A stretch of 64,000 bases of DNA, taken from assembly GCA_022820505.1 (NCBI GenBank), contig JAJEFK010000016.1, positions 1-64,000 on the forward strand. The letters are read 5' to 3'. Positions 5,525 through 43,103 of this stretch are shown here, piece by piece. The notes under the pieces were generated by a model that searched no databases, was not told the origin of the DNA, and saw only the letters and a program-made list of their open reading frames with translations. Position 1 is the stretch's first letter; each line of letters opens with the position of its first letter. The translations under genes were made by a program, and so were the position numbers. This DNA is from Acidimicrobiia bacterium. GTDB lineage: Bacteria > Actinomycetota > Acidimicrobiia > Acidimicrobiales > Poriferisodalaceae.

Positions 5525-8509
5525 ATGGATGACGTGAATTCGCAAAACCAAGGTTCCCTCTGGCGGCGCTGGGATCCGCATATTCACCTTCCCGGAACGG
5601 TCTCGAACGATCAATTCGGTGCAATGAGTATCGAGGACGCGCTGAGGCAACTCTCCCGTGTTCAACCTCGGATCGAAGCCATAGGGGTTACCGATTACTA
5701 CACCACGACTAGTTTTCGCGCTGCTGCCAACGCGCTAGCAACAGGGGTTGCTCCCGGAATTCACTTCGCTTTCCCGAACGTTGAACTCCGGCTCGATAAC
5801 GCTACGTCATCAAATCACGGAGTCAATATTCACCTCCTTTGCTCTCCCAATGAAGTAGACCGACTCGACCAGTTCATCAGTGGTCTTGAATTCAGCTGGC
5901 GAGATACGACGTTCAGAGCCACACACGACGATCTAATCCGGCTTGGTCGAGAATTCTCGCAGGATGCGAGTCTCCCAGATGATGCAGCATTACGAATCGG
6001 TGTGACGCAGTTCAAAGTAAACTTCGAGCAGCTACGCCAGCAATTCCGGAACAATAACTGGGCGCTAGAGAACATCCTCATTGCGGTTGCTGGTGGTGGA
6101 CGCGATGGCACGTCAGGCCTACGTGACCAAGCCGGAGGCTTCGCTGCGAGACGACAATCCATTGAACGTCTAGCGCACATAATTTTCAGTAGCAACCCAC
6201 AGCAAGTGAGGTTTTGGTCGGGCGATGGTGACTTGAGTGAGACAGAGCTCGAACAGACATACGGCGGCATGAAGGTCTGTCTCCACGGAAGCGACGCGCA
6301 TGATCCCTCAAGACTTGGTATACCGGACGACGATAGATTCTGTTGGCTCAACGGTGATCCGACTTTCGATACACTGCGTCTTGCTTGCCTGTCGCCCAAG
6401 ACGAGGAGCTTCATCGGACAAGAATCACCTGCCGTGTCCAGTACCTATGGCAGAGTGATTAGAGTAGGCGTACCTAACGAGAGTTGGTTTGCCAATGGTA
6501 CGATTGAACTCAATCCTGGATTAGTCTCGATTATTGGACCGCGCGGTTCGGGCAAAACTGCTCTCGCCGACCTGATAGCAGCTGGCGCGGGCTCAAGGGA
6601 ACCATTCGATAATGATTCATCCTTCATTCGGCGCGCTGGACGACTGCTCAGCAGCACAGTAGTCAGAGTCGAATGGAGCCATGACGAGACGATGGAACAT
6701 CGCCTGGCCAACGACGATGCCAACGAAGCTTACCCACGACCAGTGCGATACCTGAGCCAACAGTTTGTGGAGCGACTGTGTGCTTCGGATGGCGTATCCG
6801 ATCAGCTCCTGGTAGAGATTGAGCGCGTGATATTCGAAGCCTGGCCAGGCGAAGAACGTCAGGGTGCCACCAATTTTCGCGAACTGCTAGAGATACAGTT
6901 GACGTCGGCACGAGCACGCCAATCGTCGGAGCTCCAAGAGGTGTTGGATTACAGCGATCGTATCGCAGATCTAAGGCTTCGTCGCAGACAAGTTGGGGCG
7001 CAACGATCGGAGAAAGCACAATACGAAGCGCAACTCAAGCGACTCGAGGGTCAGATAGCCGCCTTGACTACGAATTCGGACCAAAGGAGCGCGAACCGGC
7101 TTGCAGTCGTATCTGAAGTCTTTGTTGAACGGCAAGGGCTAGTTCAAGCGCTTGATCGACGTCGGACGGCTTTGAGCGGGTTGCAGAGTGCCGTTAGCTC
7201 GGCTCGATCAACCGCATTCCCTCAATACCACCGACGCCTTCGCGACGAATATTCGGCATCAGGCCTAACTGACATACAATGGGCATCCTTTACAATTGAC
7301 TTCACTCATGACGTAGATAGTCTGATAGGGCAAGCGCTTCAAGACATCTCTAATGAGCTGAACAGCTTAAGAGGGGAGCCTGTCGTCGACACCATTCCAA
7401 TTGTGCTTGACGAGTACTCTCGCGAGGAACTCTCTACCTTCTCGCTCGCTCAACTCAATAGTGACGTCATGCGGCTTCAAGAACTCGTAGGGCTCGATAC
7501 TGAACGACGCAAGCGGCTTACGAAGCTCTCTGAATCTGCCGCAGGCGTCCGCACACACATATCAAGGTTGTCGGAAGACATCGAACGCGCTTTGAGTGAG
7601 GACATTGACGAACTCATCATAAGTCGACGCGACCACTACGAATCCTATTTTCAGGCTCTAATCGAAGAAGAAGATGCGTTACGAAAGCTCTATGAGCCGC
7701 TTAGCGCTGTGCTAGAGGACATTGGCTCTTCGGTGTCGAAACTTCGATTTAGCGTTCGACGAGCAGTTGACGTCAGCTCATGGGCAAGGATGGGTGAGGA
7801 ACTGCTCGACTTGAGGAAGGAAGGTCGCTTTCGTGGAGAGGGTGCCCTAGAACGCGCTGCGATGACCGAACTCGTCCACGCCTGGGAATTCGGCGATTCT
7901 GGTGAAGCCGCCGATGCGATTGACAACTTTGCCAGAAAATATGGTGGCGATATTCGAAGCCAACAGCCGGCGCGTGTGGCAAATGACTCGCAAATTGACA
8001 ACTGGGAACGAAGTGTATCACGCTGGCTATTCAGGACTGATCACATCCAGCTTCGATACAGTTTGGACTACGATGGGTTGAACATTGAACAACTCTCACC
8101 GGGGACGCGTGGGATTGTATTGCTACTCTTGTATCTGGCGGTAGATCAACAAGAGAGCGATCCGCTGATCATCGACCAACCGGAAGAGAACCTTGACCCG
8201 GAATCCGTGCATTCGGAGCTAGTCCAGTTGTTCAGGTTGGCAAGTCAACGCCGACAGATCATCATGGTCACACACAATGCAAACTTGGTCGTCAACACCG
8301 ATGTTGACCAAGTCATCGTCGCTCACTGTGGACCGCTGGCCAAGGGACAGCTGCCCGAGATTCAATATCGATGCGGTGGTCTAGAGGACCCTGAGATACG
8401 TCGCTCAGTATGCGAGATACTCGAAGGTGGCGCAGAAGCGTTCCGACAACGCGCCCGCCGATTGGGCCTTGACATGTCTGTTGATGTGTCGGCTTTGGCT
8501 CCTCAATAG
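5525..8509 (+). CDS. PHP-domain + AAA/SMC-like ATPase (TrlF-family-like)
   Basis: N-terminal PHP-like motifs (RRWDPHIHLPG, IGVTDYYT, LHGSDAHDPSRLG); Walker A GPRGSGKTAL; central coiled coil; ABC-like C-term LSPGTRGIVLLLLYLAVDQQESDPLIIDQPEENLDPESV. Confidence 0.83.
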   Translation: MDDVNSQNQGSLWRRWDPHIHLPGTVSNDQFGAMSIEDALRQLSRVQPRIEAIGVTDYYTTTSFRAAANALATGVAPGIHFAFPNVELRLDNATSSNHGVNIHLLCSPNEVDRLDQFISGLEFSWRDTTFRATHDDLIRLGREFSQDASLPDDAALRIGVTQFKVNFEQLRQQFRNNNWALENILIAVAGGGRDGTSGLRDQAGGFAARRQSIERLAHIIFSSNPQQVRFWSGDGDLSETELEQTYGGMKVCLHGSDAHDPSRLGIPDDDRFCWLNGDPTFDTLRLACLSPKTRSFIGQESPAVSSTYGRVIRVGVPNESWFANGTIELNPGLVSIIGPRGSGKTALADLIAAGAGSREPFDNDSSFIRRAGRLLSSTVVRVEWSHDETMEHRLANDDANEAYPRPVRYLSQQFVERLCASDGVSDQLLVEIERVIFEAWPGEERQGATNFRELLEIQLTSARARQSSELQEVLDYSDRIADLRLRRRQVGAQRSEKAQYEAQLKRLEGQIAALTTNSDQRSANRLAVVSEVFVERQGLVQALDRRRTALSGLQSAVSSARSTAFPQYHRRLRDEYSASGLTDIQWASFTIDFTHDVDSLIGQALQDISNELNSLRGEPVVDTIPIVLDEYSREELSTFSLAQLNSDVMRLQELVGLDTERRKRLTKLSESAAGVRTHISRLSEDIERALSEDIDELIISRRDHYESYFQALIEEEDALRKLYEPLSAVLEDIGSSVSKLRFSVRRAVDVSSWARMGEELLDLRKEGRFRGEGALERAAMTELVHAWEFGDSGEAADAIDNFARKYGGDIRSQQPARVANDSQIDNWERSVSRWLFRTDHIQLRYSLDYDGLNIEQLSPGTRGIVLLLLYLAVDQQESDPLIIDQPEENLDPESVHSELVQLFRLASQRRQIIMVTHNANLVVNTDVDQVIVAHCGPLAKGQLPEIQYRCGGLEDPEIRRSVCEILEGGAEAFRQRARRLGLDMSVDVSALAPQ

Positions 8510-18458: not shown

Positions 18459-18590
18459 TCGGTTCTGCGTCATAGACTCGCGGCCGGTTGTCGTGAGCGA
18501 AGCCGGTGAGATCCCGGCGCTGTCCCGCAACGGTGATGCCCCTTCGGGGGACGAGTCCGGTCGCCTCCCGGCCGCCATCACGCGAACCGA
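18459..18590 (+). promoter_or_regulatory. cobalamin (B12) riboswitch
   Basis: gcgaagccggtgagatcccggcgctgtcccgcaacggtga...gagtccggtcgcctcccggcc matches the cobalamin-aptamer core; P1 TCGGTTC (18459-18465)/GAACCGA (18584-18590); precedes btuF. Confidence 0.9.
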
Positions 18591-18668
18591 TTCCTCGAGG
18601 TAAGGAGCGGCTCGTGCGGTGGGTGCTCCCGCTGCTCGGCCCTGAACTCGAGCAGAAGGGAGAACACC

Positions 18669-38818: not shown

Positions 38819-39442
38819 ATGCACGACGAGCCCGGGCACGGCCATCACGAACACCACGACGCGTCATCGCCGGAGGTCCGCGTCGAAGCGCTCGAAGACC
38901 TGCTGGTCGAGCGAGGCCTGGCCGATCCCGAGCGGATCGACGCCACGATCCGGCGTTTCGAGCACGACATCGGCCCGATGATCGGGGCGCGGCTGGTAGC
39001 CGAGGCGTGGGCTGATGCCGGCTTGCGTCAGCGGCTGCTGACCGACGCTGACGCCGTCGTGGCCGACATGGACATCCGGGGTGCAGAGATCGAGCACATC
39101 GAGGTGAAGGCCAATGGGCCCGGCGTCCACAATGTGGTTGTCTGCACACTGTGCTCGTGCTACCCGTGGGCGCTGCTGGGCTTGCCGCCGAACTGGTACA
39201 AGAGCCCCGAGTACCGGGCCCGCGTGGTGCGCGAGCCCCGGGCCGTGCTGGTCGAGATGGGCCTCGAACTCGACCCGGGCACCGAGGTGCGCATCTGGGA
39301 TTCCAGCTCTGAGACCAGATTCCTGGTGCTGCCCGAGCGTCCTGCGGGCACCGAGGGATGGCCGGCCGAGCGCTTGGCCGAACTGGTGACCAGGGATTCG
39401 ATGATCGGCGTCGCGCATGCGGCCGATCCCGGCGGCCAGTGA
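38819..39442 (+). CDS. nitrile hydratase subunit alpha, cobalt type
   Basis: Metal site VVCTLCSCYPWALLGLPPNWYKSPEYRARVVREPRAVL; CTLCSC (Thr) is the Co-type variant. Confidence 0.96.
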   Translation: MHDEPGHGHHEHHDASSPEVRVEALEDLLVERGLADPERIDATIRRFEHDIGPMIGARLVAEAWADAGLRQRLLTDADAVVADMDIRGAEIEHIEVKANGPGVHNVVVCTLCSCYPWALLGLPPNWYKSPEYRARVVREPRAVLVEMGLELDPGTEVRIWDSSSETRFLVLPERPAGTEGWPAERLAELVTRDSMIGVAHAADPGGQ

Positions 39443-39452
39443 GGCGCCGCCG

Positions 39453-39794
39453 GTGAGCATTGACCTGCTGGAGGGCAGCCCGGCCGCACCGCCACGTGAC
39501 AACGGCGAGCTCGTCTTCTCCGAACCGTGGCAGGCACGTGCGTTCGGGCTGGCGGCTGACCTCGTCGGCAGCGGCCACTTCACCTGGGACGAGTTCCGCG
39601 AGCACCTCATCGAGGCCATTTCCGGGTGGGAGCACACCTCGGGCAGCGGAGATGCTGCAGAGCCGTGGGACTACTACCGGTGCTGGCTGACAGCGCTCGA
39701 GCACGCCGTTGGCGAGCGCGGCCTGCTGAGCAGCGATGCAGTTGCCGATCGGGCCGCCGCGTACGCTTCCCGTCCCGCCGGCCACGACCACTGA
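39453..39794 (+). CDS. nitrile hydratase accessory protein (NhlE/p14K-like)
   Basis: LVFSEPWQARAFGLAADLVGSGHFTWDEFREHLIEAI...WDYYRCWLTALEHAVGERGLLS, beta-subunit-N-terminus-like; start at GTG 39453. Confidence 0.9.
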   Translation: MSIDLLEGSPAAPPRDNGELVFSEPWQARAFGLAADLVGSGHFTWDEFREHLIEAISGWEHTSGSGDAAEPWDYYRCWLTALEHAVGERGLLSSDAVADRAAAYASRPAGHDH

Positions 39795-39864: not shown

Positions 39865-40404
39865 ATGAGCACCCTCACCTTCCACGATCCGCGAGGCGAG
39901 GCCAAGACTGCGCCCGAGCCCTACACGCTCAGCACGCCGCTCGACCAGCCGATCACGATCGGCCTGGTCGCCAATGGCTTCCCCGACAGTGTCCGCTTCC
40001 TCGACCACGTCGAGAAGGCACTGGCCGAGCGGCTGCCGTCGGCGTCGTTCAACCGTTACGACAAGGGCGACGCTTCGTCGGTTGTCGGCAAGGGGATGCT
40101 CGACGACATCAGCTCCGAGTGCGGTGCGGTGATCGCCGCGTACGGCCATTGAGGCAGCTGCACATCTGGCACCGTGCGTGACAGCATCACCACCGCCCGA
40201 GCGGGCATCCCGTCCATCGCACTCGTCACCGACGCGTTCTGGCCCCAAGGCGACTTTGTGGCCAACGCCACCGGCATGCCGACCGTTCCTCGCGTCCGCC
40301 TGCCGCACCCGGTAGCGGGCAGCGGCGAGGACAACATGGCCAAGGTGGCCGCCGACATCGCGCCGCAGATCATCGCGATCCTGACCGGCGCCACCTCAAA
40401 CTGA
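39865..40404 (+). CDS. UGSC-family selenoprotein candidate (in-frame TGA at 40150-40152 read as Sec)
   Basis: MSTLTFHDPRGEAK...CGAVIAAYGH-[TGA]-GSCTSGTVRDSITTARAGIPSIALVTDAFWPQGDFVANATGMP...; both halves in the same frame with continuous homology-like character; H-U-G-S-C motif; stem-loop right after TGA. Confidence 0.87.
40153..40185 (+). promoter_or_regulatory. candidate bacterial SECIS element
   Basis: ggcagctgcacatctggcaccgtgcgtgacagc can pair GCUG/CAGC and GCAC/GUGC around loop AUCUGGCACC; starts directly 3' of TGA. Confidence 0.45.
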
Positions 40405-40411
40405 ACTAGTC

Positions 40412-41536
40412 GTGGCACTGCTGGAGGCCCGCAGCGAGGCCGACGCGCTCGAGCAGCTTCACGCGCTCGGGCTCACCGATGGTCTGCCGGTGGTCATCCC
40501 CACGCCGGAGCGGGTGGCCATGATGGCGCTCGCCTCTGGCCTTGACCTCGATCTCGAATTGGGTGTCATGGGACCCGCGCACGGCGTGGCGAGCGTGGAG
40601 AAGGTGGCGACGGCCGCAGTGATGGCCGGCTGCCTGCCCGACTACATCCCCGTCGTTGTGGCCGCCGTGCGCGCGGTGTGCCAGCCCGAGTTCGACCTCA
40701 CCGAGATGCAGAGCACCACCCACTGCACCGCGCCGCTCATCGTGGTGTGCGGGCCAGCACGGCACCAGTGCGGCGAAGTGGCATCAGGATTCGGGGCGCT
40801 CGGGCCCGGCCATCGGGCCAATGCCACCATCGGGCGGGCGCTGCGGCTGGCGATGATGAACATCGGCGGGGCCCGGCCGGGCGTGTCCGACATGGCGCTG
40901 CACGGTCATCCCGGCAAGTTCACATACTGCCTCGCCGAGGACACCGAGAGCAGCCCGTTCGCGCCGCTGCACACCAGCTACGGCTACGCCGAAGAAGACA
41001 GCGCCGTGGTCGTGGTCGGTGCCGAGGCGCCGCACTCCACGATCTTCACCGGCGATGCGGACGACCCCGAGTCGGCCAGCCGGCTGCTGAACGTGATCGC
41101 TGCGGTCATGGCCAACCCGGGCAGCAACAACGCGCACCTGCGGCACGGCGCTGTCACCGTGATCATGAACCCCGATCACACGACAGTGCTGGCTCGCGCG
41201 GGGCTGACCCGCGAGGACATTCAGGCCGAGCTGGCTGCCCGCGCAACCAATACCGCAGCGACGCTCGCCCATGTCGGGTCGGCCTTCTACCTCGACCGGG
41301 ACGGCCCGTCCGATGAGCTGGTCCCGATCCTGAAAGACCCCAGCAGGATCGTGGTATTCCAGGCGGGCGGCTCGGGTCTGTACACGATGGTGATGCCGTC
41401 GTGGTGCGCCGGCCCTCACCAGAACCCGGTCGTCCACGCCGAGATCGATCTCGACCAAGCGTGCGAGGTGCCTTGGGCCGAGGCCCTTGGGATCGGCCAA
41501 TCAGACCCAGCCGATGTTGCAGGAGGAGCAGCCTGA
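40412..41536 (+). CDS. conserved hypothetical protein co-encoded with the UGSC protein
   Basis: [72 protein letters not shown]...[22 protein letters not shown]; starts 7 nt after the UGSC stop; TGATG overlap with next gene. Confidence 0.8.
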
Positions 41537-42030
41537 TGAGCGATGCGCCCCGCCCGCACGGCGGACGGTGGTTCGAGGAGCTGACGCCGGGACTGGTGAT
41601 TCACCACCGGTTGCGCCGCACGATCACCGAGGCCGACAACGTCATGTTCACCACCATGACGATGAACCCCGCGGCCCTGCACCTCGACTTCGAATACGCC
41701 CGCACTGAGACCCAGTTCGGCAAGCCGCTCGTGAACTCGATGTTCACGGCCGCTGTCGTGGTCGGCATATCAGTCCACGAGACCACCCACGGCACCACCG
41801 TGGCGAACCTCGGCTTCGAGCGGATGGACTTCCCTGCGCCTGTCTTCCACGGCGACACGCTGCGCGTCGAGAGCGAAGTGGTCTCGGCACGCCCGTCCAA
41901 GAGCAAGCCCGACCAGGGCATCATCCTGTTCGAGCACCGCGCCTACAACCAGGACGACAAGCTGGTCGCCATCATGCGCCGCAACGCCCTCATGTGGCGC
42001 ACGCCGGCGGAGCCCGACACCGACGCCTGA
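41536..42030 (+). CDS. MaoC-family (hotdog) dehydratase
   Basis: [71 protein letters not shown]. Confidence 0.92.
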
Positions 42031-42077
42031 ACGCCCTGGGGCGCGGCGACATCACTGCGCGTGCATCCTTGACCGCC

Positions 42078-43103
42078 GTGAGCCCCGGTCCCGCGCCCGA
42101 TGCCATCGCACTGCAGCGAGACGCGCAGCAACTCGCGGATGGCGTGCTGTTCGAGCGTGCGCTGGACGTGGACACAGCGGGCGAGGTTCCCGAGCGCAAT
42201 TTGGACCTGTTCCGTGACGCCGGCTTGTATGGGCTGTGGACGCCGACCGAGGTGGGCGGCTGCGGCTTCGACGAGCTTGAGCGGCTCCCGATTCTCGAAG
42301 CGCTGGCCGGCGGCTGCCTCACGACCGCGTTCGTGTGGGCTCAGCACGGAGGCGGCTCGGCGAACGCCGCGCGGATGCCAGCCGGGTCGCCGCTGCATGA
42401 GCGCTGGGCTCAGGCGCTCGCCACCGGCGCGCAGCGCAGCGGTGTGGCGTTCGCCCATGTGCTGCGGCCCGAGCCGTGCCTGTTCGCCGAGCGTTCCGGT
42501 GGTGGCTGGAATCTGCGTGGCGTCGCGCCGTTCGTCACCGGGTGGGGTCACATCGACGCAGTGCTGGTTGCCGCTCACGAGGCCGACCGGCTCGTGTGGA
42601 TGCTCATCCCGGCCACCGAGGCGCCCACGCTGACATCGCGCCGGCTGCGGCTTGCCGCAGTGGACTCGTCGGTGACAGCGGAACTGCACTTCGACGGTCA
42701 CGTCGTCGGCGACGACGAGGTGGTGGAGATCATCGACTACAGCGACTGGCTGTCGTTCTACCGCCAGGGCCTGCGAACCAACGGCGCCCTCATGCTGGGC
42801 GTGGCATCCCGCGCACTGAAACTGTTCGGACCCTCGCCGCTGGATGCCGAGCTGGACGCGGCTCGCAGCGCGCTCTACGCGGCCGAGGTCGACGAGATGC
42901 CCGAACGCCGTGCGCAGGTCGGTTACGTGGGCATCCGGGCGACCAGCGCGCTCGTCTCATCGGTCGGCGGCAGAGCCATCACACTCGCCCATCACGCGCA
43001 GCGCCTCGCCCGCGAGGCACTGTTCCTGCTCGTCCAGGGCCAGACCGCCGACATCCGCGCCGGCCACCTGCGCCGCCTCGGCGCCACCGACCCGGACGGT
43101 TGA
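42078..43103 (+). CDS. acyl-CoA dehydrogenase family protein
   Basis: RDAGLYGLWTPTEVGGCGFDELERLPILEALAGGCLTTAFVWAQHGG...; start GTG 42078 inferred. Confidence 0.87.
   Translation: MSPGPAPDAIALQRDAQQLADGVLFERALDVDTAGEVPERNLDLFRDAGLYGLWTPTEVGGCGFDELERLPILEALAGGCLTTAFVWAQHGGGSANAARMPAGSPLHERWAQALATGAQRSGVAFAHVLRPEPCLFAERSGGGWNLRGVAPFVTGWGHIDAVLVAAHEADRLVWMLIPATEAPTLTSRRLRLAAVDSSVTAELHFDGHVVGDDEVVEIIDYSDWLSFYRQGLRTNGALMLGVASRALKLFGPSPLDAELDAARSALYAAEVDEMPERRAQVGYVGIRATSALVSSVGGRAITLAHHAQRLAREALFLLVQGQTADIRAGHLRRLGATDPDG

Follow-up and report, generated by a model that had tools for sequence, protein, structure and literature searches.

Results

The reading frame and its interruption

A coding frame interrupted by a single TGA raises the question of whether the locus carries one selenoprotein gene or a truncated gene followed by an orphan reading frame. 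In the 64,000-nucleotide stretch analyzed here (the window), which belongs to an assembly of 3.29 Mb that is 95.5% complete (G000), the frame opened by the ATG at position 39865 reaches a TGA at 40150-40152, corresponding to codon 96, and then stays open until the TGA at 40402-40404. A sequence-only reading of this DNA had interpreted the whole frame as one hidden selenoprotein of about 179 amino acids. The ORF coordinates, the in-frame TGA and the sequence across the stop were all as it had given them, the translation running ...VIAAYGH-U-GSCTSGTVRDSITTARAGIPSIALVTDAFW and the joined protein counting 179 residues. The features of the locus are collected in Table 1.

Table 1. Features of the UGSC locus, in window coordinates
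Feature	Position	Strand	Basis or remark
Nitrile hydratase alpha-subunit homologue	38819..39442	+	TIGR01323, 270.5 bits, over cutoff; adjoins UGSC only in near orthologues (L048-L056)
Nitrile hydratase beta N-terminal/accessory-like protein, 125 aa	39417..39794	+	TIGR03889, 77 bits, over cutoff
UGSC-family selenoprotein gene, 179 aa	39865..40404	+	PF24696 match spanning TGA; orthologues; purifying selection on both sides
Predicted Sec codon UGA, residue 96, within H-U-G-S-C	40150..40152	+	Comparative codon data
Candidate SECIS region; bulged 6-bp hairpin CUG-GCA/CCG/UGC-(GUGA)-CAG at about 40166-40184	40153..40190	+	Same register as the relatives' 8-bp hairpin; tentative
Conserved partner subunit NB374, 374 aa	40412..41536	+	GTG start 7 bp past UGSC stop; adjoins 105/111 UGSC hits
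MaoC-like hydratase	41530..42030	+	PF01575, E 4.2e-22; start overlaps partner stop
Acyl-CoA-dehydrogenase-like protein	41994..43103	+	PF02771, E 5.8e-9; last of the same-strand run

The joined protein belongs to the UGSC family

On the basis of its profile match, the 179-residue protein is a member of the UGSC family (PF24696). The match covered residues 7-174 and profile positions 3-171 of 172, spanned the TGA and returned an E value of 1.6e-44 and a score of 152.5 bits (cutoff 25), far beyond chance, and no Pfam family other than PF24696 matched the joined protein (PF07355 included). The NCBI model NF041046 "UGSC family (seleno)protein" gave 110.9 bits, under its 125-bit cutoff, so that this model alone would not name the protein. 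Judged by sequence, the window copy shares the domain, the UGSC motif and the interchange of Sec and Cys with the known family (PF24696, NF041046; PMC2398784) but is a divergent member of a HUGSC subclade, not assigned to the NF041046 equivalog. The earlier attribution to a known selenoprotein family was thus correct, while the word "hidden" needs qualifying, as the family was published in 2008 with the GOS selenoproteome (PMC2398784) and has both Pfam and NCBIfam models.

The family was found in 33 of the 41 genomes searched (the window's genome and 40 relatives), and the window's genome holds five UGSC paralogues, each with one in-frame TGA. Scanning the window for further in-frame TGA codons flanked by coding-like sequence gave no other convincing motif. 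An AdoCbl (B12) riboswitch (RF01482, 55.7 bits) is located at 18472-18616 on the plus strand of the window.

Codon 96 is almost certainly read as selenocysteine

The search for selA, selB, selC and selD proposed with the original reading found all four in the genome, above family cutoffs: tRNA-Sec (RF01852, 66.3 bits; called tRNA-SeC with anticodon tca by ARAGORN), selA (381.9 bits) and selB (274.1 bits) adjoining each other on contig C36, and selD (353.8 bits), whose product has a canonical, TGA-encoded Sec of its own (GAGUACKLG). In addition to the window copy, all 14 Sec orthologues examined have TGA at codon 96, while their true terminator varies between TGA and TAG, and TGC occupies exactly this codon in the Cys homologues of Rhodospirillaceae, Sphingobium and Cryobacterium (L057, L066, L067), nested within the HUGSC clade with support of 99/99, some branches there being long. 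No TAA or TAG replaces the Sec codon among the UGSC hits of the 33 genomes; one divergent hit shows an extra TAG in addition to its TGA.

None of the homologues ends at this TGA, the other point raised beforehand. The dN/dS ratio was 0.085 upstream of the codon and 0.173 downstream, where 35 of the 55 variable columns fall at third positions, and homologues from other phyla (51-59% identical overall) retain the sequence beyond the TGA. By these substitution patterns, the half downstream of the TGA is under purifying selection. The locus combines two of the features by which bacterial selenoproteins are recognized, namely sel genes in the genome and a UGA aligned to Cys or Sec with both flanks conserved.

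The view that the locus is a truncated gene plus an orphan ORF, arising from a pseudogene, a sequencing error or a plain stop with readthrough, draws on the two ORFs that standard callers return, one ending at 40152 and the other spanning 40174-40404, but is already contradicted by the retention of the TGA across independent assemblies, by downstream purifying selection, by Cys at the same site and by the full Sec machinery, and we consider it extremely improbable. A genome-wide reassignment of TGA was ruled out, as the same gene terminates at the TGA at 40402, where orthologues have TAG or TGA. The claim of a single selenoprotein of about 179 residues is thus borne out by the PF24696 match across the TGA, the sel machinery, the TGA/TGC alignment and the downstream selection, and UGA 96 is almost certainly decoded as Sec by the cell's SelA/B/C/D machinery.

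The putative SECIS element

The published bSECIS model comprises a G in the loop, a loop located 16-37 nt after the UGA and an MFE at or below -7.5 kcal/mol (PMC13188914), and the same values were adopted here. Most UGSC relatives display an 8-bp hairpin with a GUN loop beginning 19 nt after the UGA. Over 27 distinct sequences of this hairpin, 89.8% of cells pair and five of the eight pairs show two-sided changes, a covariation equalled by 0 of 500 shuffles, although the sequences are related and the count is not a probability. As a predicted structure, the relatives' hairpin fits the published model (PMC13188914).

The window copy keeps five of the eight pairs in the relatives' register, the alternative being the bulged 6-bp stem of Table 1, whose outer U-A pair reads as C-G in the alignment of Pseudomonadales orthologues. 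Folding of the window hairpin was no better than that of shuffled sequences, and its loop is CCG, lacking the consensus loop G. The window, L058 and the Pseudomonadales genes share the codons GGC ACC GTG CGT GAC without any difference although protein identity is only 51-59%, a hint of an RNA constraint. The putative SECIS of the window copy is weak and unproven.

A conserved partner adjoins UGSC genes

The sequence-only reading had overlooked the downstream neighbour, which turned out to be a conserved partner without a family match in Pfam or NCBIfam (NB374). A homologue of this protein lies within 2.5 kb and on the same strand at 105 of 111 UGSC hits in the 41 genomes, at least four of the six remaining hits being located at contig ends, and a partner profile search returned the same 33 genomes with both proteins and the same 8 with neither. 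By genomic context, the partner is a near-obligate companion of UGSC, and the two genes are probably co-transcribed. Their order varies, with the partner first or second, and the association reaches Natrinema (haloarchaea), Arthrobacter, Roseovarius and Variovorax. Both proteins form a single chain in L072 (window's genome, 582 aa, Sec) and in L077 (Cys), and fusions also occur in plasmid proteins of Vibrio and Sporomusa.

The motif around a partner cysteine, Cys74 (VMAGC), was found in 57 homologues, and 53 of them have the Cys. Sequence comparison of the partner with the PDB gave nothing significant, and fold matches to class I fumarases and Toblerone-fold hydrolases (TM 0.15-0.30) were discarded as too weak. 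The 2008 paper describes a fusion with "Unknown_1" (PMC2398784), which is possibly the same partner; no statement on the partner and thioredoxin links of UGSC was found in the papers searched.

The fused genes of Vibrio and Sporomusa are located on plasmids of Vibrio europaeus (L131, 5359-7044) and Sporomusa termitida (L133, 5317-7041), near aconitase X and DUF126 genes. Their products bear ADMGTS at the motif, with neither Sec nor Cys, and possibly perform a different chemistry. Two partner-profile matches (G000:C55:199623-200660 and G011:C44:32348-33349) cross one in-frame TAG or TAA and are likely read-through beyond the true stop.

Predicted fold and likeness to GrdB/PrdB

An AlphaFold2 model of UGSC built from 13 sequences showed a beta-alpha sandwich with a pLDDT of 89.3, in which Sec96 is positioned after strand 3 and immediately before helix 97-112. 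Foldseek comparison of this model with the PDB returned flavodoxin-like domains as best matches (TM about 0.48), and sequence comparison with the PDB gave no match. The fold is thus predicted to be a flavodoxin-like sandwich and not a thioredoxin fold, at variance with the 2008 report, which grouped UGSC with Trx-like redox proteins and suggested a "likely Trx-like fold" (PMC2398784).

HHalign comparison of UGSC with GrdB/PrdB-like sequences placed Sec on Sec with a score of 35.8; none of 30 column-shuffled controls exceeded 18.0, and the reversed control gave 14.4. Since the HHalign probability was only 60%, homology is putative, and a similarity in mechanism is claimed and not membership. 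In GrdB/PrdB (PF07355, TIGR04483), as in UGSC, the Sec site is UxxC and precedes the pattern ...E..GIPT.., and their systems have a separate partner subunit. The profile match, Sec on Sec, is weak, UGSC lacks the long N-terminal region of GrdB, and its partner fits no family model. No full-length profile match placed UGSC in the GrdB/PrdB family (PF07355), and we do not class it as an aerobic glycine or proline reductase. A search of the PDB gave no GrdB relative. In glycine reductase, thioredoxin acts as the reductant (PMC13188914).

Three short proteins resembling GrdB/PrdB, with Sec sites of the UPxC type, are also encoded in the window's genome, at C6:70965-71165 (minus strand, about 7 kb right of the window), C58:74025 and C24:87340. 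In all three genes the in-frame TGA (VPxUPxC) directly follows the PF07355 match, the Pfam model ending before Sec.

Thioredoxin links and genomic neighbourhood

One partner clade, which includes the partner of the paralogue on C59 (L071) and an orphan copy on C22, has an N-terminal domain with the thioredoxin signatures CPTC and TVPTL (VKRDCPTC...TVPTL). This domain scored 24.2 bits against PF00085, passing the cutoff of 23.5 in one member, and its profile matched PDB thioredoxins with an E value of 6e-7. Unlike thioredoxin (PF00085), it scores weakly, is fused to an unrelated 350-aa domain and is missing from the window copy. Plasmid operons show the same link: trxB-trxA-partner-UGSC in Arthrobacter, with the trx genes directly before the pair, partner-UGSC-trxB in Roseovarius, and trxB near the pair in Variovorax. 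In the window copy, trxA and trxB are not adjacent and the partner has no Trx domain. These data are most simply read as a reduction step fed by thioredoxin. The orphan Trx-domain partner homologue (L134, about 6419-7207; G000:C22:20418-21206) is kept in most close relatives, and no UGSC hit was found near it.

The window gene lies in a same-strand run of nitrile hydratase alpha, nitrile hydratase beta N-terminal/accessory-like, UGSC, partner, MaoC and acyl-CoA-dehydrogenase-like genes, largely kept in near orthologues; the two nitrile hydratase-like genes form a compact pair directly upstream (38819-39794, plus strand). These accompany near orthologues only, and a nitrile hydratase role was discarded as a family trait. 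MaoC homologues also occur near UGSC pairs of a different clade, and other paralogues of the same genome lie beside homocysteine S-methyltransferase-like, acyl-CoA dehydrogenase, amidohydrolase and permease genes. The neighbours suggest catabolism of organic acids, CoA thioesters or nitriles/amides, varying by paralogue, and, given these differing neighbourhoods, the paralogues probably differ in substrate.

UGSC genes with an in-frame TGA were also detected on conjugative plasmids of Acidovorax sp. T1 (IncP p2-T1; L127, about 8196) and Paracoccus versutus (pBEN; L128, about 8274), where the gene is annotated as truncated in the former and absent from the distributed gene table in the latter.

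Discussion

We propose, as a fairly probable reading of the whole, that UGSC and the 374-residue partner constitute a two-subunit, thioredoxin-coupled selenol reductase with Sec96 located in UGSC. Following their pairing in genomic context, the two proteins would associate in a physical complex, in which Sec96 and the resolving Cys99 of the U-G-S-C motif, as placed in the AlphaFold2 model, would form a selenol/thiol pair, while the partner would supply most of the substrate site and the near-invariant Cys74. The selenolate would attack or reduce a small organic substrate, and thioredoxin would re-reduce the resulting selenenyl-sulfide; in one clade thioredoxin is fused to the partner, and elsewhere it is operon-encoded together with thioredoxin reductase. 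That the enzyme is a reductase rests on the analogy with GrdB/PrdB and seems slightly favoured. The fused homologues of Vibrio and Sporomusa, devoid of Sec and Cys, imply that this chemistry is not available to all members of the family.

Other functions can be envisaged for a genuine Sec. The pair might be a general thiol or peroxide oxidoreductase, active as an antioxidant or in repair, rather than a substrate-specific catabolic reductase, as the UxxC motif, the thioredoxin links and the placement of UGSC among Trx-like redox proteins in the 2008 GOS paper (PMC2398784) would suggest; however, the modelled fold is flavodoxin-like and not that of thioredoxin, five divergent paralogues per genome occupy different metabolic neighbourhoods and a partner of this size and conservation points to a substrate site, which makes this function unlikely. 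Alternatively, Sec might act as the covalent nucleophile of a non-redox lyase, racemase or transferase, with thioredoxin merely keeping it reduced. Such an enzyme would be in line with a Rossmann-like fold that places the nucleophile where a helix begins, with neighbouring genes such as those of aconitase X, MaoC and the isocitrate lyase family, and with the existence of members without Sec or Cys, but a stoichiometric electron flow is suggested by the fusion to Trx and the repeated occurrence of trxB/trxA operons and Cys99 is invariant in the UGSC orthologue alignment, so that we hold this role to be rather improbable.

The UGSC family was already known; this analysis adds its near-obligate partner, a link to thioredoxin and a correction of the predicted fold. 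Gene callers split UGSC genes in two, even on the Acidovorax IncP plasmid. With a partner that has no Pfam or NCBIfam model, a thioredoxin link and a predicted fold, the function becomes testable as that of a concrete complex. Tentatively, the two-subunit, thioredoxin-coupled reductase proposed here might represent an unrecognised class of selenium-dependent enzymes, with a remote relationship to the glycine/proline reductase Sec domain, with five or more paralogues per genome in Acidimicrobiia close to the window's genome and occurring also in Proteobacteria and haloarchaea, each paralogue of which would serve a different catabolic pathway.
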